Below are positions 51,284 through 64,000 of a stretch of 64,000 nucleotides of DNA, one piece after another (the stretch's first letter is position 1; each line of letters opens with the position of its first letter). Made by a program: the position numbers and the translations under genes. Source of the DNA: Crocinitomicaceae bacterium (GTDB lineage Bacteria; Bacteroidota; Bacteroidia; Flavobacteriales_D; Crocinitomicaceae); contig JANQWC010000004.1 in assembly GCA_030730025.1 (NCBI GenBank), positions 29,179-93,178 of the forward strand, given 5' to 3'. Under the pieces are notes generated by a model. That model did no database searches. It had not been told where the DNA came from and worked only from the letters and a program-made list of their open reading frames with translations.

Positions 51284-52039
51284 GTGCAGCACATTCAAAA
51301 AAAAATCAATTCAGAACTCAATCCAAACGTCTCCGTAGACTGCGTTATTTTCGGATTTGACCTCGAACAACTTACCGTGCTGCTCATCGACCGCGGCGAG
51401 ATTTCATCTGCGTTTGGGCCGCGTTTGGCCCTACCCGGCAACCTCATCTACGACAACGAAAACCTCGACATGGCCGCCAACCGCGTTTTGGACGAACTTA
51501 CTGGCCTCAAGGACATTTACCTAGAACAAGTTGGTGCTTTTGGCGACCCCGACCGCATCCACAAAGAGTCTGACCGCGAATGGCTCAAGAGCATCCGTGC
51601 AGAACCAGAAGCGCGCGTGATCACTGTGGCTTATTTTACGTTGGTCCCGATGTCCGACTACAAACCCCAAGCCTCCTCTTTTGCCAAAAACGCAGATTGG
51701 ATACCCGTCAGTGAAATCAAAGAACTCGCCTTTGACCACTTCGAAATTTTACAAGCGGCCAAAGAAAAACTCAAGCAAAAAATCAAAATTCAGCCCATCG
51801 GTTTCAACCTGTTGCCTGAAAAATTCACCTTAAGTCAGCTACACCGCCTCTACGAATCTATCCTAGACAAACCCCTAGACAAGCGCAATTTCAGACGCAA
51901 AATCCAAAAGCTCGACATTCTAACAAGTTTGAGAGAAAAACAACGTGGGGTTCCGCACAAACCCTCTTTATTGTATGAGTTCAACGAAGAAAAATACCAA
52001 GAACTCACCCAAACAGGCTTCGATAACTTCGGTTTCTAG
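51284..52039 (+). CDS. NrtR/AraR-type Nudix transcriptional regulator
   Basis: 251 residues from a GTG at 51284; no in-frame ATG exists between the preceding stop and the conserved region. The N-terminal Nudix domain (about 15-150) has a degenerate Nudix box, GNLIYDNENLD followed by RVLDELTGL, in which the Glu after Arg and the second Glu of the EExG core are replaced, so hydrolysis is unlikely. The C-terminal winged-helix domain covers about 165-245 (FTLSQLHRLYESILDKPLDKRNFRRKI). In Bacteroidota such proteins (for example the Bacteroides AraR) sense sugars or their derivatives and repress sugar operons. Divergent placement points to control of the maltodextrin operon. Confidence 0.85.
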   Translation: MQHIQKKINSELNPNVSVDCVIFGFDLEQLTVLLIDRGEISSAFGPRLALPGNLIYDNENLDMAANRVLDELTGLKDIYLEQVGAFGDPDRIHKESDREWLKSIRAEPEARVITVAYFTLVPMSDYKPQASSFAKNADWIPVSEIKELAFDHFEILQAAKEKLKQKIKIQPIGFNLLPEKFTLSQLHRLYESILDKPLDKRNFRRKIQKLDILTSLREKQRGVPHKPSLLYEFNEEKYQELTQTGFDNFGF

Positions 52040-52145
52040 GCAACTTCTTTTTTTTATCCGAACAAAAAATTGTAATTTTCTAAGGTAATTGTTACCCTGG
52101 TGTAACTTTTGCGACCAACAAATTGTTCTACTGCCGGACACAATT
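52040..52145 (+). promoter_or_regulatory. Upstream control region of the ECF sigma operon
   Basis: 106 bases without a gene. A T-run (about 52047-52056) follows the Nudix gene but I see no stable hairpin before it. GTTAC (52091-52095) and GTAAC (52102-52106) form a five-base inverted repeat, and TAACTTTTG (52103-52111) is a -7-like box with one extra base. The GTTAC/TGTAAC blocks resemble AAC-containing ECF -35 elements, so autoregulation by the encoded sigma is possible but not shown. Confidence 0.35.
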
Positions 52146-52637
52146 TTGAACCGCTCTGACTACAATACCTGTGTAGACCTCCACAGCGACGCGCTGTATA
52201 GGTTTTGTTTGCATTTCATGCGAGATGTCGAACCAGCACGCGATACCGTACAAGACTGTTTTGAAAAATTGTGGATCAACAAGGAAAGCGTCACAACAGA
52301 CAAAGCAAAAGCTTGGTTGTTTACTTGTGCAAATCACCTGATGCTCAATCAAGTGAAGCGCAACAAAGTCAAACAACAGCATTTGGACTCGCTCGGATGG
52401 AGCAGCACCAATAGCACAGACAAGCACTTTGAAACCCAACAACTCATCGAATTGTTGGTCAAAGATTTGCCGCCTCTGCAAAAAAGCATCTTGTTGCTCC
52501 GAGACCTCGAAGGCTATACTTACCAAGAAATCGGTTCCATGCTCGACCTGACCGAAGCCCAAGTGAAAGTATACCTTTTTAGAGCGAGGCTCAAAGTCAA
52601 AAAACGCGCTAACGGACAATTTGTATTGGCTTCATGA
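52146..52637 (+). CDS. ECF-type RNA polymerase sigma factor
   Basis: 163 residues from a TTG at 52146. No ATG exists before the conserved region. The frame is open back to another TTG at 52089, but that start lies upstream of the -7-like box and adds residues unlike the family. Region sigma-2 is seen as LHSDALYRFCLHFMRDVEPARDTVQDCFEKLW, with a WLFTCANHLMLNQVKR segment. Region sigma-4 reads LPPLQKSILLLRDLEGYTYQEIGSMLDLTEAQVKVYLFRARLKV. It should redirect RNA polymerase to envelope-related genes. Its stop overlaps the next gene by four bases (ATGA), the usual arrangement of a sigma and its anti-sigma. Confidence 0.9.
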   Translation: MNRSDYNTCVDLHSDALYRFCLHFMRDVEPARDTVQDCFEKLWINKESVTTDKAKAWLFTCANHLMLNQVKRNKVKQQHLDSLGWSSTNSTDKHFETQQLIELLVKDLPPLQKSILLLRDLEGYTYQEIGSMLDLTEAQVKVYLFRARLKVKKRANGQFVLAS

Positions 52638-54265
52638 AACCTACATTAGAAAACATCGATCAATGGCTCTTTGATGCCCTCGAAGGCAACTTAAGCCCCG
52701 CTCAAGAGCAAGTCCTAGACGACTTCATCGCCCAGCACCCGGAGCTCGAGCTCGAACAAGAGGCTTGGTTCAAAACCAACTACGTCGCTTCAGAAATCAC
52801 CTTTGAACCAAAAGCTGCGCTCTATCGCAAAAAGCAATTTGGCTATAAACCTTTTGCAGCAGCAGCTGTCCTGCTCTTGCTACTTGCCGTTGGCTTCTAC
52901 CAAAACCAAGAAGCGCCTTCAAAAGGTACGCTTTCAAAAGCGCCATCAAAAGCGACGCTTTCAAAAGGAATTTCTCAACAGAATACAAACTCTCCATCGA
53001 CAAACTCTCCATCGACAACTACACTTTCATCAACTCCTTCTACTCCACTCGTTTCTTCAAATCCACTCGTTTCTTCAAATCCGGCTACAACCGAAGTTTC
53101 TCTATTTTCAAACACTGTTTCTCTCCCTACAACAACTTCCTCCTCTCCACTCGCTTCTTCAAATCCACTCGTTTCTTCAAAACAAGCTACAAATTTAGCG
53201 ACCCTGAAGCCTCTTGCAGCTGGCCTTATCACAGGCTACCGCACCGATTTGCGTTTTGAAGCCCTCGCTGGCGTACAAAGCGAGCTGGAGCTCAAGAATA
53301 ATTGGCGTTTGCCGGCACTGCAGCGCGCCAGTCAGTTTGCGCAAAAAGAACTGGGTCTTAGCAACAACCAGACTTACGACCTACTGCTTCCGGGCAAGAG
53401 CAACATCGATGCGAACATCAGCAGTGTAGGTACGCTTTCGCAAACGCGCTTTCAGAGCAGCAGTCTGGCGCGCACAGGTACCGCCAGCGAACAAAGCCTC
53501 ATGGGGCAGCAATTTAGCCTCGATGGCTATTCGCGCAGTTTGCGGGCTGGGCTTGGTATTCAGGGCAGCTACAAACAATATGCTGGCGCAGCAGTGTCTG
53601 ACTACGAAATTGGACTCATTGCAGCACCTAAAATTGCACTCAATCGCATGATCATCCTAGAACCCGCTGCGCGCTTGCGCTTGGGGGCGCGTTACGCCGA
53701 TGCGGCCAAACTACAGAGCCTTTCTTTTATCGAATTTGAAAACGCCGACCTCAGAGCCGTTCAGGTTGATACCGCATTATCAGTTGGCCGCCGCCTTTTT
53801 TACAAGGACCTCGACCTCAGCCTAGCCATCCAGACACCTATTTTATTTGTGAGTGCCCAACTCGAAAACGCATTCAGGCATTTTGACTACGCCATGGGCA
53901 ATGAGCAAAATCCGAGCAATAGCAGCGCACCGCAACAACTCACCGTTTCCATCGGCACACAATACGCTTCGCGCAATGAAAAAATGCGCCTCGCGCCTTA
54001 TTTGCAATACCGAAGCAATCGCTTGCAAACGCAATACTTAGCTGGTATCCAACTGAACCTCAACAAATGGCAGCTCGGTGCAAGTGTGGCCAGTAACCAA
54101 CAGTATCAAGCGTCGTTGGGCTATTTGGGCAAACACAGCGCCATCATCCTGCAAAGTTGCCAGCACCAACTTCTGACACTCAACACACCAAGTTATTTTC
54201 ACCAAGTCACGTTCCGCATTTACTCACAACCTAGCCGCAAGGCCCGTCGTTATATCTCTTTGTAA
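52634..54265 (+). CDS. Predicted dual-membrane-spanning anti-sigma factor with C-terminal outer-membrane barrel
   Basis: 543 residues in four parts. Residues 1-60 are a small acidic helical domain like the zinc-less N-termini of Bacteroidota anti-sigma factors (IDQWLFDALEGNLSPAQEQVLDDFI). Residues 71-89 form one membrane helix (FAAAAVLLLLLAVGFY). Residues 90-195 are a Ser/Pro/Thr/Lys low-complexity tether encoded by tandem repeats. Residues about 200-543 look like an outer-membrane barrel with alternating strands (RSLRAGLGIQGSY, LEPAARLRLGARY, LSLAIQTPILFVSAQLENAF, RLAPYLQYRSNR, YFHQVTFRIYSQ). The barrel resembles the PorP/SprF-type barrel of the next gene in layout. With no N-terminal signal, the head should be cytoplasmic. 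This matches the Dma-type anti-sigma factors of Bacteroides. Confidence 0.75.
   Translation: MKPTLENIDQWLFDALEGNLSPAQEQVLDDFIAQHPELELEQEAWFKTNYVASEITFEPKAALYRKKQFGYKPFAAAAVLLLLLAVGFYQNQEAPSKGTLSKAPSKATLSKGISQQNTNSPSTNSPSTTTLSSTPSTPLVSSNPLVSSNPATTEVSLFSNTVSLPTTTSSSPLASSNPLVSSKQATNLATLKPLAAGLITGYRTDLRFEALAGVQSELELKNNWRLPALQRASQFAQKELGLSNNQTYDLLLPGKSNIDANISSVGTLSQTRFQSSSLARTGTASEQSLMGQQFSLDGYSRSLRAGLGIQGSYKQYAGAAVSDYEIGLIAAPKIALNRMIILEPAARLRLGARYADAAKLQSLSFIEFENADLRAVQVDTALSVGRRLFYKDLDLSLAIQTPILFVSAQLENAFRHFDYAMGNEQNPSNSSAPQQLTVSIGTQYASRNEKMRLAPYLQYRSNRLQTQYLAGIQLNLNKWQLGASVASNQQYQASLGYLGKHSAIILQSCQHQLLTLNTPSYFHQVTFRIYSQPSRKARRYISL
52917..53182 (+). repeat. Tandem DNA repeats encoding the periplasmic tether
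   Basis: Within the anti-sigma/barrel gene: degenerate TCAAAAG-containing units (about 52917-52970), a 15-bp unit repeated twice (52985-53014), and an 18-bp unit CCACTCGTTTCTTCAAAT present in two pairs (53045-53080 and 53147-53182), one copy with a single C/T change and the last with a final-base change. Units are multiples of three, so copy-number change keeps the frame. Confidence 0.8.
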
Positions 54266-54267
54266 TT

Positions 54268-55230
54268 ATGAAAAAGTTAAGCTTATCCCTACTCTTCTTG
54301 GTTGCAACCAGCAACTTGCTTGCCCAAGACCCCACCTTTACGCAGTTCTATTCCAACCCGGTCTACCTCAATCCCGCGCTAGCTGGCTCGAGCGGCTGCC
54401 CACGTGTGGCACTCAATTACCGCAACGAATGGCCGCAACTCACGGGTAATTACGTCACGTATGCGGCGGCTTACGACAGCTATTTCAAGAATATTTCTGG
54501 CGGCGTTGGCCTCATTGCCCTACACGATGTGCAAGGCCAAGGAACAATTCAGACATCCATGATTGGCGCTAGCTACTCCAACTACCTGAAAGTCAATCGC
54601 AAATTCAGACTCATGTTTGGAGCGCAAGCTGCCTATTATCAAAAATACCTAGACTGGAGCAAACTCACTTTTGGCGACATGATTGACCCGCGCCGCGGAT
54701 TCATCTACCAAACCGGTGATGTGCCACGTGGCAACGGCCGCCGTGGCTTCTTCGATGTGTCGGCAGGTATTGTGGGCTTCAGCAAGAATTTCTATTTCGG
54801 CGCGGCTTTTCATCACCTCAACAGACCAGACGAATCCATGATCCTCGGCCAATCTAAGCTGCCCATCAAAGTAACAGGGCACATCGGGGCAAACATCAAG
54901 CTCGGGCAGCGCGGTCGCTATTCAAGCACCACATTTTTATCGCCAAATATTATTTACCAGAACCAAAACGGCTTTCAGCAACTTAATGTTGGTGCCTACC
55001 TCAAGTATGAAAGTTTTACCATCGGCGCTTGGTACCGCAACAAAGATGCGTTTATCCTCACCGTCGGCATCAACACAGACAACTACCGAATTGGGTACAG
55101 CTATGACCTCACGGTTTCGCCACTCGGCAATGGGGTAAGCGGCGGTTCTCACGAAGTATCATTGGGCATCAACCTCAAATGCAAAAAACCAGCCCGCGAC
55201 TTCAGACGCATCAGCTGTCCTTCTTTCTAG
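54268..55230 (+). CDS. Type IX secretion system membrane protein PorP/SprF family
   Basis: 320 residues. Signal peptide KLSLSLLFLVATSNLLAQ, then the PorP/SprF hallmark DPTFTQFYSNPVYLNPALAGS (about 21-41) and NYRNEWPQL, with barrel strands to the end. A Cys/Arg-rich tail (KCKKPARDFRRISCPSF) follows the last strand region. These proteins hold T9SS cargo or adhesins at the outer membrane; SprF serves the SprB adhesin in Flavobacterium. It starts two bases after the anti-sigma/barrel gene, so sigma, anti-sigma and PorP form one operon. The giant adhesin encoded 1.8 kb downstream is a candidate client. Confidence 0.92.
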   Translation: MKKLSLSLLFLVATSNLLAQDPTFTQFYSNPVYLNPALAGSSGCPRVALNYRNEWPQLTGNYVTYAAAYDSYFKNISGGVGLIALHDVQGQGTIQTSMIGASYSNYLKVNRKFRLMFGAQAAYYQKYLDWSKLTFGDMIDPRRGFIYQTGDVPRGNGRRGFFDVSAGIVGFSKNFYFGAAFHHLNRPDESMILGQSKLPIKVTGHIGANIKLGQRGRYSSTTFLSPNIIYQNQNGFQQLNVGAYLKYESFTIGAWYRNKDAFILTVGINTDNYRIGYSYDLTVSPLGNGVSGGSHEVSLGINLKCKKPARDFRRISCPSF

Positions 55231-57068: not shown

Positions 57069-60000
57069 TTAGTTTTTAACGATGCGGATCGCTTCGGCTG
57101 CTTCGGCTACTTTTAGGAAGTAGATGCCGCGTGCAACTTGGTCGATGTCGATAGTCGTTGACGTACCATTTAGTGCGCCAGTAGCGACCACCTTACCTTG
57201 CGCATCTTGAATCACGTAGTTGCTGTACAACGCTTCGGACGCTTTCAAAGTGAAGACTGCATCAGTTGGGTTTGGTTGAACTGAGAAGCTAACAACCGTT
57301 TGCTCATCTAGACCAACTGTTAAAGTAAGATTCAATGTAATTGTGGAATCACAACCAGCTGCGTTGGTCAGTGTTTGCGTGTAGGTACCAGATTGGGTGT
57401 ACATGATGTCGTTGAGAATGTAGTCAGCAACACCCGTCGCGTTGATGGTGCTTGTCGTAGGCTGATTCACCTGAACCGCTACAGCATTTGTAGTTACGGA
57501 ACAACCTGCTGGACTGGTAACCGTGGCGCTATAGCTACCGGAAGTTGTTACATTTATTGAGCTGCTTTGCGCCGTGTTAGACCACACATATGTATTACCT
57601 GCAGCTGCACTCAATACTACACTTTCTCCTTCGCAGAAACTCAACGGACCACTTGCCACAATAAAGTTAGCAGGAAGCGCATTGACTGCTACATCAATAG
57701 AAGTGGTATCTGAACAACCGTTGGCAGCAGTAGCCGTAAGCACATAAGTACCGGCTGTGCTTGCGCTCAGCGTTGAGCCAGACTGACCATTTGACCATCC
57801 ATAAGTAGCAGCACCAGATGCTGTTAAAGCCACACTACCACCTTGACAGAAGGTTGTTGGTCCGTTAGCAGTAATTTGCGCTGTAGGTGCTGGTAAAATA
57901 GTGACTGAAACAGGCGCAAGTGTTGTTGTACACCCATTTGAACCCGTGACCGTTACACCATAATTGCCAGTTGTTGTTGGCACTATACTTTGAGAAGTGG
58001 CATTGTTGGTCCAGAGGTAAGTGCCTGTTCCGGAAACAGCTAAAGAAACAAGCTGATTAGAACAACTTGTCGCCGAACCTGTCAGGTTGATACTTGCCAC
58101 CGGCGCACTCAACACATTGACTAAAATCGCATTGGACACTGCTGAACAACCACTCGGACTTGTAATAGTGACCGTATAGGCACCAGAATTACTTGCGGTA
58201 ATGCTTGGTGTGGTTGCACCATTGGACCACAAATAAGTTCCACCTGCATAACTATTCGCATTGAGCGCCACACTTGCGCCCGCACAGAAATTCGTCGGAC
58301 CAGCAGCAGCAATTGTTGCATTTGGAGTAATTCCTGTTCCCAAAGTATATACGGAACTTGCAGAACAGCCATTCGCGTCAACAACCGTTAAAACATAAGT
58401 GCTTGGTTGCTGAACCGTGATGCTATTGCTCTGAGAACCTGTACTCCAGCTGTACGAAGCAGCATTGATCGACGAAGTCAGGCTGACCGACTGACCTGAG
58501 CAAATAGCAGGGGCACTTGCTTGGATGGCCACAGCAGGGGCTGTATTCACCGTAACTTGAACAGGCGAAACTTGATAGCTACATCCAGCGGCATTTGTGA
58601 TGATCGCACCATAAGCACCTGTAGCATTGACCAAGATCTGTGAGCCAGTTTGGTTTGTACTCCATTGATAAGCAAAACCTGCCGGTAAACTCAACTGAAC
58701 AGCTCCACCCGAACAGAACGAGAGTGGCCCATTGGCTACAATCGAAACCGGACTGATGGTGTTGACCACAACTGGTGAAGTTGTTGACACAGCACAACCA
58801 TTGGCATAAGTAACTGTGTATGTCAGGTTTGTAGCACCAGCGCCAAGACCAGTATAGCTACCTGATGTTGGATCAATACCGACCACGCTTGGATTTTGAC
58901 TTGACCAAACACCATTGGCAACCGCATTTGAAAGCTGTGCGCTCGCACCTAAACAAACAGCGGCGGCACCAGTATTTGAACCAAGTGCAGGTGCAGCGAG
59001 CATTTGTACGCTAATTGGTGTGGCACTTGCACTACAAACACCGTTAGAAACTGTTAACCCAACAGTTTGCGTAGTCGCTAAAGTAATGCTTTGCGAAGTA
59101 GCGCCATTAGACCACGCATAACTTGCCGCCGGATCAGCAGTGAGCGTAACGCTAGCACCTTCACAGAAAGTAAGTGCGCCTGAAGAAGAGATATTAATAG
59201 AAGGCAAGGATTGCACGGCAACCTGAATTGGCGTCGAAAGTGCCGAACAACCATTCAAAGAAAGGTTAACGGTGTAAGCTCCTGGCGCTTGAACAGTGAT
59301 ACTTTGAGTAGTGGCGCCATTGCTCCATAAATAGCTAGTAGCAGGCTCAGCTGAAAGCGTAACACTTCCACCCTGACAGAAAGTAGTTGGCCCCGACGCC
59401 ACTACAGTACTCACTGGTAGCGCATTGACCTCAACGAGCGTTGGCACCGAAGTAGCGCTACAGCCGTTTTGAGTGGCTTGTACAGTGTATGAGCCTGCTG
59501 TTTGAACCGAAATACTTTGTGTTGTGGCACCTGTACTCCACAAATAACTACTTGCAGGAGCTGCTGTCAAGACCACATTTGATCCGGCGCAAATGCTTGT
59601 TGAGCCAGATGCGGTTATCGTTGCTGTTGGGGCAGTCAGTGTACTCACGACTACCGGTACAGCACTCGCACTACAACCAGCAGAATTGCTCACACTCAAG
59701 CCGATGCTTGTTGCTGTGGAAACCGTAATACTTTGCGTTGTGGCGCCGTTTGTCCAGAGGTAAGACGAAGCAGCTGGAGCAGTGAGCGTAACGCTCGCGC
59801 CAGAGCAAAGGCTCAAAGAGCCAACAACTTGAATTTGAGGCACCGCAGGTGGTGCTTGAACGCTAACTACCGAGGCTGCGGAAGCGGCCACACATCCATT
59901 TGCGTTGGTTACCTGGACTGCATAATTACCTGCGGTATTGACCACAATACTTTGAGTTGTGGCGCCATTGCTCCAAGAATAAGCTGCAGCCGGCGTTGCT

Positions 60001-63000
60001 GTTAGGGTAACACTTGCGCCCTGGCAGAAGCTCAACGGACCACTTGCCGTGACACTTGCACTTGGAAGGGCCTGTACAACCACAGCTACTGGTGCACTTG
60101 TAGCGGCACAACCGTTGTTGTTCACGTTAACTGAATAATTTCCAGCTGTACTGACAACAATACTTTGCGTGGTAGCACCATTGTTCCAAAGGTAACTTGA
60201 AGCAGTCGCTGCGGTGAGCGTAACTGAACCTCCTTGACAGAAGGTAGTTGTCCCGATTGTAGAAATCGTTGGCGTTGGCAGCGGCGTCACGTTGATGGTC
60301 GTGACGGCAGATGTAGCACTACAACCGTTTTGCGTAGAAAGCACGCTGTAGTTACCCGCGGTATTGACTGTAATACTTGCAGTTGTAGCACCATTTGACC
60401 ACAAATAGGTTGTGGCAGGGCTAGCCGTAAGTACTACATTGCTACCCTGACAAATTGTAGTCGGGCCATTTGCAGCAACCGTTGGGCTTGGCAAAGCGGT
60501 CACGGAAACGGTAATTGGAGCCGAAGTTGCACTACAACCATTTGAATTGACAGCAACGGTATAAGTGCCGGCTGTACTTGCACTAATGCTCTGAGTAGTT
60601 GCACCGTTTGACCACAAGTAAGCTGAACCAGCGCTAGCCGTCAAGGTGACCGCAGCACCCGCACAAATAGTCGTGCTGGCTGCTGGGGTAATTGTAGCCG
60701 TTGGAAGCGCATTGACAGTTACACTTGTATTGGCAGAAGTTGATGTACAACCTTGGTTATTGGTGAGCACCAAAGAGTAGTTTCCGGCAGCACTTGCGGT
60801 GTATGTTGGCGCAGTAGCACCACTAATTGGCGTTCCGTTGAGGCGCCACACATAACTAAATGTGGAGCCAGTAGGCGGCGTTGGTCCGTTTAAGACAACA
60901 GACGAACCAGCACAAAATGTTGTTGAACCGATATTGGTAATGACGGCATTCGGACTTGGCGCCATGGTTACAACTGCTGGCGTGGCACTTGCCGAACATC
61001 CATTAGCAGTTACACTCAAGCCATAAGAACCGGCCGCATTGACCGTAATACTTTGGGTATTGGCACCATTCGACCACAAATAACTAGAAGCTGGGCTTGC
61101 GGTCAAGACCACAGTAGCACCCGCACATAGCGTGGTAGCTCCACTAGCGGCAATCGTTGGTGTAGGCAAAGCATTCACCACAACTGCTAATGGAGCGCTA
61201 GTTGCGCTACAGCCATTGGTCGTGAGTTCAACACTGTAACTTCCCGTAGCATTGGCAACAATACTCTGAGTTGTGGCACCAGTAGACCATAAATATGAAC
61301 CGGCACTTGGGGCCGTAATTGTGACGTTATTTCCTGCACAGAAAGTGGTTGCTCCACTTGTAGTGAGGGCAGTTGAAATGGCAGGCTGCACACTTACAGA
61401 AGTTGCTGTCGAATTACTGTAGCAACCGTTGTTCAAGCTAGAAACTTGATAAGTCCCGGCCTGAGCAACCGTAATACTTTGCGTTGTAGCACCAGTAGAC
61501 CACAAATATGCAGTACCCGGACTTGCCGTCAGCGTGACGCTAGCGCCTGGACATAAAGTTGTCGAACCCGAGGCTGAAATTGAAGTTGGAGTCGTCGACT
61601 GAACCGTCATGGAAAGGGATGCATTCGCTGTACAACCATTTGAAGTGGTGATTTGATAAGAAATGACAACCGATCCAGCAGCAAGCCCTGAAACCAAACC
61701 ACTTAAAGGGTTAACCGTTGCTTTACTGATATCAGAACTAGACCATAGACCATTGGTTGTGGCATTGCTCAATTGGGTACTCGCGTTGACACAAACACTG
61801 CTCGAACCACTGATTGCAGCAATGGTTGGCTGCGCCAGAACTTGTACGCTTACTTGCTGCGCGCTCGCGCTACAGCCATTTGCAGCTGTCATGGTGAGGC
61901 CGTAGTTTCCAGCTGTACTGACAACTATACTTTGGGTTGTAGCCCCAGTAGACCAAAGATAACTTGTGGCGGATGGCGCACTCAGCTCAACCGAACCACC
62001 CTGACAAAATGCGGTAGATCCAGACGCACTGATTGTCGTCAAAGGAGCCGCTAAAATGGTGATCGGATAATCTACTGTAGCCGTACAGCCGTTGAGGTTG
62101 GTATACGTATAGCTGATGGTTGAAGAACCCGCAGCAAGGCCCGTTACCAACCCGTTGATATGTCCAACAGTAGCAGTATTCAAGTTTGATGAGCTGTAAA
62201 CTCCACCAGACATCGGAATACTCAATTGGATTTGACCATTGCTACAAACCGTACTCGGACCACTTATCTGACTCATGGTCGGTAAAGGATTCACCACCGT
62301 TTGAATGCTGGCTGCTGCACTCGTACAGCCAAAGCCATTGGTAATTTGAACACTGTAGGTTCCTGCACTCTGAGTACTGATGCTCGAAGTAGTGGCTCCT
62401 GTTGACCACAAATAGGACAAGCCAGCACCTGTATTTGCTTGTAAAGTCACTGCTGCGCCTTGACAAAATGCCGTTGGGCCACTCGCCGTTATTTGCGCCT
62501 GTGGCGTCGGATGGTATGCTACAAAAACTGGTGTCGAACTCGCACTACAGCTTCCCGAACCCACGCTAACCGAGTAAGAACCTGCGGCAGAAACATCGAT
62601 ACTTTGGGTTGTTTCACCTGTACTCCACAAATAGCTAGTAGCCGGCGAAGCTGTTAAGGTAAGGTTTGAACCTGGGCAGATGGTTGTGGAACCATTGGTA
62701 GAGATCGTTGCAACTGGTACTTGGATAACACTTACAACAATTGGATCCGATGTTACGGTACAACCGTTTGAACCGGTAAGGGCAACTGTAAAGGTTCCAG
62801 CCGAACTAACGTTTATACTCGGCGTTGTCTGGCCATTGCTCCACGTATAAGCAACAGCGCTTCCTGTTGTGATGTTGATACTTGCACCGGCACAAATAGC
62901 GATGTTGTTGCCAGGGTAAATGGTGGCATTTGGAACAGGGTTGACATTGATTTGAACACTGTTTGAATTCGCACTACATCCATTTACTGTTGTGATGGCA

Positions 63001-64000
63001 ACTTGATACGTACCTGCTGCATTCACAACTATACTTTGGGTTGTTTGTCCTGAACTCCACAAATAACTAGCGCCCGCACTGGCCACAAGGGTGATGGAGT
63101 CTCCCTGACAAAATGTTGTTGAACCGTTCTGTGTGACTTGTGCATTTGGCAGCGCATTGACCGCAATTACTTGGCTAGCCGTACCTGGATTTGCGTTCAA
63201 ACAACCCGGCATATTGGCAACATGATACGTAAGTGTTGCACTTCCTGGGCTCACAGGCGTAGCCAATCCGGTTAGCGGATTCACAGCCAAAACAGCTGGA
63301 TTACTCGAAGACCAAAGGCCGTTTGGCGTCGCATTAAGGTATTGTTGGGCAGCGCCCATACAGAGCCCAGAAACACCTGAAATAGAAGCAATTGTTGGTG
63401 CAGGAATAACAGTAATTGTGACCGCATTAGAATTGGAGCTACAACCATTGGCACCAGTGATGATCACACTGTATGTTCCTGAAGATGTTACCGAAAGGGT
63501 TTGTGTCGTGACATTATTTGACCAAAGGTAACTCGAAGCTGTTGAAGCTTGTAAACTCACGCTTTCGCCAGCACATATTTGAGTAGCTGGTGGTATTAAA
63601 ATTTGGTTAGATGGTAGCGCCTTGATTTGCAATACCTTTGTAGCGGCATTGACACAACCAAAACTATTGGTAACGGTATAAGTAATGACTACACTACCAG
63701 CAGAAATAGCGTTCACCACGCCGGTTTGTGCATCAATAGTAGCTAAATTCGGGTTGGATGAAGTCCAAACGCCACCAGAAATATTATTGGAAAGCGTAAT
63801 GGAAGAACCAACGCAAACACCGTTGTTACCCCCTGCTATCAACCCAGGATTTGGAATCGGATTGATCACGACAGCCGCAGCGGTTTCAGTACCCCAACAC
63901 ACCCCTTCGCGGGCTCTAAAATAATAGGTACCCGAAGTGGTAATACTTTCAGAAGTAGATGGTGTAGTGATACTTGTGCCATTTGAGGTTGTTCCTTGGA
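57069..64000 (-). CDS. Giant Ig-like-repeat surface protein with T9SS sorting domain (partial, 5' end beyond window)
   Basis: More than 2300 residues; the frame stays open through the window end (codons before 63902 encode ...TTSGTYYFRAREGVCWGTE), so the N-terminus is missing. By eye there are 24 modules of about 75-80 residues. Each has a SYLWSNGATTQSI-like strand, a following AGTYxVxVT strand, and two conserved Cys (FCxGxSV and NGCSA) that could form a disulfide. Interspersed are five Big_2-like modules (LWSSSNPAxxxVNPLTGLxxGLxxGSxxISY). The last 75 residues are a T9SS type A sorting domain (FSVQPNPTDAVFTL, VIQDAQGKVVATG, GIYFLKV). Likely a cell-surface adhesin or stalk. Confidence 0.92.
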   Translation of the reverse strand, partial: QGTTSNGTSITTPSTSESITTSGTYYFRAREGVCWGTETAAAVVINPIPNPGLIAGGNNGVCVGSSITLSNNISGGVWTSSNPNLATIDAQTGVVNAISAGSVVITYTVTNSFGCVNAATKVLQIKALPSNQILIPPATQICAGESVSLQASTASSYLWSNNVTTQTLSVTSSGTYSVIITGANGCSSNSNAVTITVIPAPTIASISGVSGLCMGAAQQYLNATPNGLWSSSNPAVLAVNPLTGLATPVSPGSATLTYHVANMPGCLNANPGTASQVIAVNALPNAQVTQNGSTTFCQGDSITLVASAGASYLWSSGQTTQSIVVNAAGTYQVAITTVNGCSANSNSVQINVNPVPNATIYPGNNIAICAGASINITTGSAVAYTWSNGQTTPSINVSSAGTFTVALTGSNGCTVTSDPIVVSVIQVPVATISTNGSTTICPGSNLTLTASPATSYLWSTGETTQSIDVSAAGSYSVSVGSGSCSASSTPVFVAYHPTPQAQITASGPTAFCQGAAVTLQANTGAGLSYLWSTGATTSSISTQSAGTYSVQITNGFGCTSAAASIQTVVNPLPTMSQISGPSTVCSNGQIQLSIPMSGGVYSSSNLNTATVGHINGLVTGLAAGSSTISYTYTNLNGCTATVDYPITILAAPLTTISASGSTAFCQGGSVELSAPSATSYLWSTGATTQSIVVSTAGNYGLTMTAANGCSASAQQVSVQVLAQPTIAAISGSSSVCVNASTQLSNATTNGLWSSSDISKATVNPLSGLVSGLAAGSVVISYQITTSNGCTANASLSMTVQSTTPTSISASGSTTLCPGASVTLTASPGTAYLWSTGATTQSITVAQAGTYQVSSLNNGCYSNSTATSVSVQPAISTALTTSGATTFCAGNNVTITAPSAGSYLWSTGATTQSIVANATGSYSVELTTNGCSATSAPLAVVVNALPTPTIAASGATTLCAGATVVLTASPASSYLWSNGANTQSITVNAAGSYGLSVTANGCSASATPAVVTMAPSPNAVITNIGSTTFCAGSSVVLNGPTPPTGSTFSYVWRLNGTPISGATAPTYTASAAGNYSLVLTNNQGCTSTSANTSVTVNALPTATITPAASTTICAGAAVTLTASAGSAYLWSNGATTQSISASTAGTYTVAVNSNGCSATSAPITVSVTALPSPTVAANGPTTICQGSNVVLTASPATTYLWSNGATTASITVNTAGNYSVLSTQNGCSATSAVTTINVTPLPTPTISTIGTTTFCQGGSVTLTAATASSYLWNNGATTQSIVVSTAGNYSVNVNNNGCAATSAPVAVVVQALPSASVTASGPLSFCQGASVTLTATPAAAYSWSNGATTQSIVVNTAGNYAVQVTNANGCVAASAASVVSVQAPPAVPQIQVVGSLSLCSGASVTLTAPAASSYLWTNGATTQSITVSTATSIGLSVSNSAGCSASAVPVVVSTLTAPTATITASGSTSICAGSNVVLTAAPASSYLWSTGATTQSISVQTAGSYTVQATQNGCSATSVPTLVEVNALPVSTVVASGPTTFCQGGSVTLSAEPATSYLWSNGATTQSITVQAPGAYTVNLSLNGCSALSTPIQVAVQSLPSINISSSGALTFCEGASVTLTADPAASYAWSNGATSQSITLATTQTVGLTVSNGVCSASATPISVQMLAAPALGSNTGAAAVCLGASAQLSNAVANGVWSSQNPSVVGIDPTSGSYTGLGAGATNLTYTVTYANGCAVSTTSPVVVNTISPVSIVANGPLSFCSGGAVQLSLPAGFAYQWSTNQTGSQILVNATGAYGAIITNAAGCSYQVSPVQVTVNTAPAVAIQASAPAICSGQSVSLTSSINAASYSWSTGSQSNSITVQQPSTYVLTVVDANGCSASSVYTLGTGITPNATIAAAGPTNFCAGASVALNANSYAGGTYLWSNGATTPSITASNSGAYTVTITSPSGCSAVSNAILVNVLSAPVASINLTGSATSCSNQLVSLAVSGTGTYLWTNNATSQSIVPTTTGNYGVTVTGSNGCTTTLAPVSVTILPAPTAQITANGPTTFCQGGSVALTASGAATYGWSNGQSGSTLSASTAGTYVLTATAANGCSDTTSIDVAVNALPANFIVASGPLSFCEGESVVLSAAAGNTYVWSNTAQSSSINVTTSGSYSATVTSPAGCSVTTNAVAVQVNQPTTSTINATGVADYILNDIMYTQSGTYTQTLTNAAGCDSTITLNLTLTVGLDEQTVVSFSVQPNPTDAVFTLKASEALYSNYVIQDAQGKVVATGALNGTSTTIDIDQVARGIYFLKVAEAAEAIRIVKN

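Follow-up and report, generated by a model that had tools for sequence, protein, structure and literature searches.

What is an extracytoplasmic function (ECF) sigma factor doing in one operon with a protein that looks able to span both membranes and with a shuttle-family gene of the type IX secretion system (T9SS)? The question is raised by a locus in the window analyzed here, a 64,000-nucleotide stretch of contig JANQWC010000004.1 from a genome bin (1.78 Mb, 81% complete) of the Crocinitomicaceae (Flavobacteriales). An earlier sequence-only reading had compared the middle gene of this operon with the dual-membrane-spanning anti-sigma factors (Dma) of Bacteroides thetaiotaomicron, in which an anti-sigma domain, a transmembrane (TM) helix, a tether and a barrel follow one another (PMC13088901). 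The answer that we favor, at a probability of roughly 0.55, is that the PorP-like barrel of a dual-membrane anti-sigma factor senses the state of a T9SS shuttle or its cargo, and that the sigma factor induces the operon, including a spare PorP.

The three genes are closely packed on the plus strand. The sigma gene (52146..52637) encodes 163 residues with the Pfam domains Sigma70_r2 and r4_2; its TGA stop at 52635-52637 overlaps the ATG at 52634 of a 543-residue open reading frame (ORF; 52634..54265), and porP (54268..55230, 320 residues) starts two bases past the end of that ORF. Both the ATGA overlap (52634-52637) and the two-base spacing agree with the sequence-only reading; the interval start that it gave, 52040, merely marks the end of an NrtR-like gene upstream. 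We modeled the 543-residue protein with AlphaFold2 (AF2) from a 29-sequence alignment, and the proposed Dma-like architecture emerged intact: a three-helix N-terminal domain on the cytoplasmic side, a single TM helix, a long disordered tether and a 14-stranded C-terminal beta-barrel, the layout that characterizes the Dma family.

The N-terminal domain (residues 1-60, 52634..52813; NIDxWLFxxxEGNLS...) is helical rather than a signal peptide, with helices at residues 8-16, 22-34 and 36-48 at a predicted local distance difference test score (pLDDT) of 82-94, and is acidic, as first described (net charge -10; mean about -9 across the 29 homologues). It is the best conserved part of the Dma alignment, and the same domain is present in barrel-less TM proteins encoded beside sigma genes. 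The overlap with the sigma gene, the acidic three-helix fold and the recurrence of the domain in those other sigma-adjacent proteins hint, indirectly, that this putative sigma-binding domain may hold the co-encoded sigma factor. The sigma-adjacent TM proteins that share it (L218-L222; 335-359 residues, some of them apparently with the domain in tandem) end in a short conserved C-terminal peptide, not a barrel. The membrane helix of the 543-residue protein lies at residues 72-90 (52847..52903; previously placed at 71-89), preceded by a net +3 within 16 residues; net positive residues precede it in 26 of the 29 homologues, which fits an N-in topology. The Ser/Pro/Thr/Asn/Gln-rich periplasmic tether that follows (residues 91-251, 52904..53386) is disordered across residues 92-226 (pLDDT < 50). 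A tether of 105 residues had been predicted; its presence is upheld, and its whole length is about 160 residues, 52% of them S/T/P/N/Q. Homologues range from 139 to 274 residues here, enough, when extended, to cross the periplasm. The DNA encoding the tether consists of short imperfect repeats (52912-52967 and 52975-53232), hairpin-like on the minus strand, and tether length varies among close relatives, as expected from slippage.

The barrel proved to be of the PorP/SprF family. It comprises about 285 residues (252-537, 53387..54244), fewer than the 340 first estimated, in 14 strands with a pLDDT mostly of 80-95, and the neighboring PorP is likewise modeled with 14 strands. The likeness to PorP/SprF suspected from the sequence was confirmed by profile-profile comparison and by the Pfam matches of homologues: hhalign aligned the Dma barrel with the neighboring PorP family over 288 columns (99.7% probability, E 9e-27), 22 of 29 homologues matched PorP_SprF (PF11751) directly (best E 1.9e-29), and a search with the Dma profile recovered ordinary PorP genes (E about 1e-30). 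The model can be superposed on PorV, a component of the T9SS translocon (Z 22.4 to 8gl6_F, 3.1 A over 252 residues; Z 22.2 to 6h3i_F), with scores level with those of FadL-type barrels. With Foldseek alone FadL ranked first; TM-scores were modest, as the model is long and has disordered parts. When the PorP and Dma profiles were searched against the sequences of solved structures, nothing meaningful came back, whereas the fold comparison did match. In a tree of 61 sequences the Dma barrels of several families form one clade (ultrafast bootstrap, UFBoot, 96), which excludes PorP and the remaining SprF-like proteins of the window's genome; a single fusion is therefore the simplest reading.

Like the shuttles SprF and Porphyromonas gingivalis PorP (PMC12618676, PMC9143113, PMC12635249), the Dma barrel is a 14-strand FadL/PorV-like barrel with significant profile homology to the family. 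Unlike them, it is fused to a cytoplasmic domain and a TM helix in place of a signal peptide; the FGDMID core of loop 3 is absent in all 29 homologues, there are no paired tail cysteines, and most members have no barrel cysteine at all. The 543-residue protein lacks, in other words, what distinguishes a working PorP/SprF shuttle, and appears to be a receptor version of one, having lost the signal peptide, the loop-3 motif and the Cys tail. The operon PorP is a regular member of the family, scoring 231 bits against TIGR03519 (cut-off 90.6) and 196 bits against PF11751, with both the loop-3 signature TFGDMIDPRRGFIY (residues 134-147, 54667..54708; near-invariant in the PorP alignment) and the periplasmic C-tail (residues 303-320, 55174..55227), in which C305 and C317 are invariant.

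The sigma-Dma-porP arrangement is conserved far beyond chance. The 543-residue protein found a match in 69 of 100 genomes of the family. A survey for the triplet, as the sequence-only reading had suggested, placed a sigma gene directly upstream of Dma in 80 of 80 named loci and porP within about 12 bases downstream in all 70 loci that could be tested, the other ten stopping at a contig edge. Named relatives are Crocinitomicaceae and Flavobacteriales bins, and the order extends to further families of the Flavobacteriales and to one more family within the class. Mean column identity is 74% for PorP versus 35% for Dma. Some public genome bins with this Crocinitomicaceae-type locus (L033, L041, L054, L059 and others) bear the titles Sphingomonadales, Chryseobacterium gleum or Chitinophaga pinensis, which look wrong.

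The link to the T9SS is stronger than the earlier reading could know, because the operon carries a second copy of the porU-porP-gldJ PorP. One copy lies between porU and gldJ in nearly all genomes checked (the identity of gldJ resting on NCBIfam, by which gldK was rejected), and in the window's genome the operon copy is 82% identical to this housekeeping copy. Across 295 genomes of the class, close relatives of the operon PorP were found in 233. At least two copies were present in 33 of 51 genomes with Dma versus 9 of 46 without, 8 of those 9 in one genus (P 1.2e-5, from a test that ignores phylogeny and serves as a guide only). Several genomes have an operon copy whose nearest relative is the porU-gldJ copy of that same genome (protein identity up to 99.7%, DNA identity up to 96%), despite the orthology of the operons themselves. 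Gene conversion is the natural explanation for these sequence patterns and implies that the copies share one function. In the genus of the window's genome the pair is older, and its members fall in separate clades. Many contigs break inside the operon-type PorP, as expected for a repeat. In one genus (g10; L256, G058) a second PorP copy is retained without sigma and Dma, perhaps as an operon remnant.

The window's genome has six genes of the PorP family together with 20 type B sorting domains, and three of the PorP genes adjoin such a domain. In Flavobacterium johnsoniae, type B cargoes without a neighboring shuttle share one orphan shuttle (PMC12618676), and by analogy the operon PorP could be a shuttle of this kind. 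The tail cysteines of SprF form a disulfide bond with GldK, linking the shuttle to the gliding track (PMC12635249). PorP keeps a similar tail, while the Dma barrel has its connection to the inner membrane, and this would suit a structural partnership: a hetero-complex of the two barrels tying the gliding/T9SS track to the inner membrane, with sigma control secondary. We regard this as very improbable, given the strict sigma adjacency, the conserved ECF promoter described below and the apparent interchangeability of operon and housekeeping PorP under concerted evolution in several genomes.

Other Bacteroidia families have a second group of TM proteins encoded next to sigma genes, apparently unrelated to the first and without the PorP barrel. 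Members with PorP directly downstream carry a copy of about 17 residues of PorP loop 3 in their disordered tail (for example, FGDQIDPRKGFIYKTQE versus FGDQIDPQRGFIWTTNE). Loop 3 was the best ungapped match to the neighboring PorP in 21 of 21 members of one family, with at most 6 of 300 shuffles as good and none in most members, and in six relatives that lack the motif, PorP is missing from the locus. The same match recurs in eight members of other families (0 of 1000 shuffles in six). At the loop-3 loci (L257-L280, L299-L311, L314, L315) the candidate lies between an ECF sigma gene and, mostly, a PorP gene. In other members of the group, 7 of 7 that were scanned, the C-terminus consists of PKD domains and a CHU_C type IX signal domain that passes the Pfam cut-off, and two of them also exceed the TIGR04131 cut-off. 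A type B sorting domain of this sort would expose an inner-membrane anti-sigma factor to the T9SS. Anti-sigma candidates with PKD and type IX (type B) sorting domains stand at L316, L319, L320, L322, L323, L324 and L326, and in one member of the group the C-terminus is a small OMP_b-brl_2 barrel. Type B cargo has PorP/SprF proteins as its shuttles (PMC12618676, PMC9143113), and shuttle barrel, shuttle loop and cargo signal act together in type B secretion (PMC9143113). All three appear to have become attached to anti-sigma factors repeatedly, which most strongly argues that the signaling concerns the type B branch of the T9SS.

The loop copies also bear on an outer-membrane assembly sensor, in which the barrel would report the folding of PorP-type barrels and their insertion by the beta-barrel assembly machinery (BAM), and an unassembled barrel would cause a periplasmic protease to free the sigma factor and so raise PorP, following the logic of sigma-E. 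A PorP segment held in the periplasm by barrel-less anti-sigma factors would fit a mimic of unassembled PorP, and the Dma barrel is, by its modeled fold, a BAM client. The copied segment is a loop, however, and not the terminal beta-signal, and a full 14-strand barrel has been retained under constraint; we consider this alternative unlikely.

A promoter of ECF type precedes the sigma gene: TGTAAC-N16-TTGTTCTA (52101..52130), conserved in relatives, with TGTAACTT unchanged in 17 close ones. Across loci, TGTAAC-N15/17-TTG[CT]T lies directly upstream of sigma in 69 of 77 and GTAAC in all 77. ORF calling had put the sigma start at 52089; we rejected this position in favor of the TTG at 52146, because relatives begin there and the conserved promoter overlaps the longer version. 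The sigma factor matches NCBIfam NF058625 (GFO_1088/PG0214 family) at 120 bits, slightly below the cut-off of 130. The strict promoter pattern occurs once genome-wide and the control pattern nowhere, and the operon probably drives its own transcription. A loosened pattern gave 8 matches versus 5 for the control. Only one other of these matches resembles the consensus, a second site of the TGTAAC-N16-TTGTT type at L296 (5069-5742, minus strand); it stands before a frame-broken gene for a small outer-membrane protein, the sole other candidate target of the sigma factor, and we claim no regulon. The housekeeping porP has a different, likewise ECF-like promoter (TGTAAC...CGT) in most genomes, and the two porP copies probably answer to different sigma factors.

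How does this locus relate to known signaling systems? In FecR/FecA cell-surface signaling, the state of an outer-membrane barrel reaches an ECF sigma factor via an inner-membrane anti-sigma factor, with transporter and anti-sigma factor separate and with TonB taking part. Unlike that pair, the Dma candidate is one polypeptide. Like the Bacteroides Dma proteins, it joins an N-terminal anti-sigma domain, one TM helix, a disordered tether and a C-terminal barrel beside an ECF sigma gene in a three-gene operon, a kinship judged by architecture (the sigma factor here is assigned as ECF; the Dma-family group is ECF21). It differs from them in its T9SS PorP/SprF shuttle-family barrel, in having porP as the third gene and in hosts that carry T9SS genes. 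PorXY-SigP of P. gingivalis (PMC4800418, PMC7712824) similarly couples an ECF sigma factor to a T9SS-related signal, but does so as a two-component system without an anti-sigma barrel. We found no report of a PorP-family anti-sigma factor in the open-licence literature. Dma proteins and PorP shuttles are known already; a Dma-type anti-sigma factor whose barrel is of the PorP family and whose constant neighbor is a duplicate PorP was absent from the papers searched and appears to be new.

Bacteroides Dma1/2 control vesiculation (PMC13088901), a precedent for a generic envelope or tension sensor in which the barrel would be an outer-membrane anchor only, the signal periplasm width or vesiculation, and PorP one target gene. 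A long, disordered tether of variable length would suit such a sensor. The PorP-type barrel, the adjacent PorP gene and the unrelated anti-sigma factors with a PorP loop or type B domains point to the T9SS instead, and make this explanation decidedly unlikely.

In the shuttle-sensing reading, the N-terminal domain would hold the co-encoded ECF sigma factor at the inner membrane, the tether of some 160 residues would cross the periplasm, and the PorP/SprF-type barrel in the outer membrane would be a dedicated receptor, engaging the usual partners of PorP. The trigger would come when the barrel meets or loses PorP's usual contact, most likely a type B cargo domain or a translocon still holding one. 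The tether would transmit this change through tension or proteolysis, and the freed sigma factor would transcribe its own operon from TGTAAC-N16-TTGTT, yielding spare PorP and fresh anti-sigma factor, the latter closing a negative feedback loop. Domain order, barrel kinship, the gene triplet, the promoter, PorP duplication and, in part of the genomes, concerted evolution were computed; sigma binding, outer-membrane insertion, ligand, signal direction, release mode and feedback belong to the interpretation. The sequence-only reading had proposed direct sensing from the outer membrane to sigma: the Dma architecture, barrel kinship and PorP linkage behind that proposal hold, while occupancy as the signal and transfer free of a protease relay are conjecture.

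Several points weigh against shuttle sensing. The window's own barrel sequence, taken alone, has no Pfam match, and there is no type B cargo gene at the locus. Essentially only the operon carries the promoter pattern, so the regulon may be tiny, and the -10 element of the housekeeping porP differs, so the two porP copies are not simply co-regulated. The PorP model places loop 3 outside the cell, and this sits uneasily with a periplasmic mimic unless unassembled PorP, or a loop inside the lumen, is the relevant form.

A wider proposal would be that T9SS-bearing Bacteroidia commonly watch the type B branch through ECF anti-sigma factors with decoy parts (a whole shuttle barrel, as in the window, a type B cargo domain or only loop 3 of the shuttle), each giving a direct readout of shuttle or cargo availability and inducing spare PorP. 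We advance it tentatively, at somewhat less than an even chance; if true across lineages, decoys would amount to a general strategy of T9SS surveillance. For the sensing of T9SS load or state outside PorXY-SigP, the present locus supplies a one-polypeptide candidate sensor with a spare shuttle gene as its output, and it suggests a possible ligand class for Dma-type anti-sigma factors. Its defined promoter lends itself to a reporter, and the independent loop- and cargo-decoy lineages make the idea testable.

The locus as a whole reads, 5' to 3', NrtR-like Nudix regulator (51284-52039, directly upstream of the sigma operon), ECF sigma factor, 543-residue Dma-type protein and porP. An M14 peptidase gene downstream was dropped as a part of the operon, being a neighbor in close relatives only. 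Farther along the window, a gene on the minus strand (57069-63902) encodes a repetitive surface protein of 2277 residues whose end resembles a T9SS type A sorting domain.

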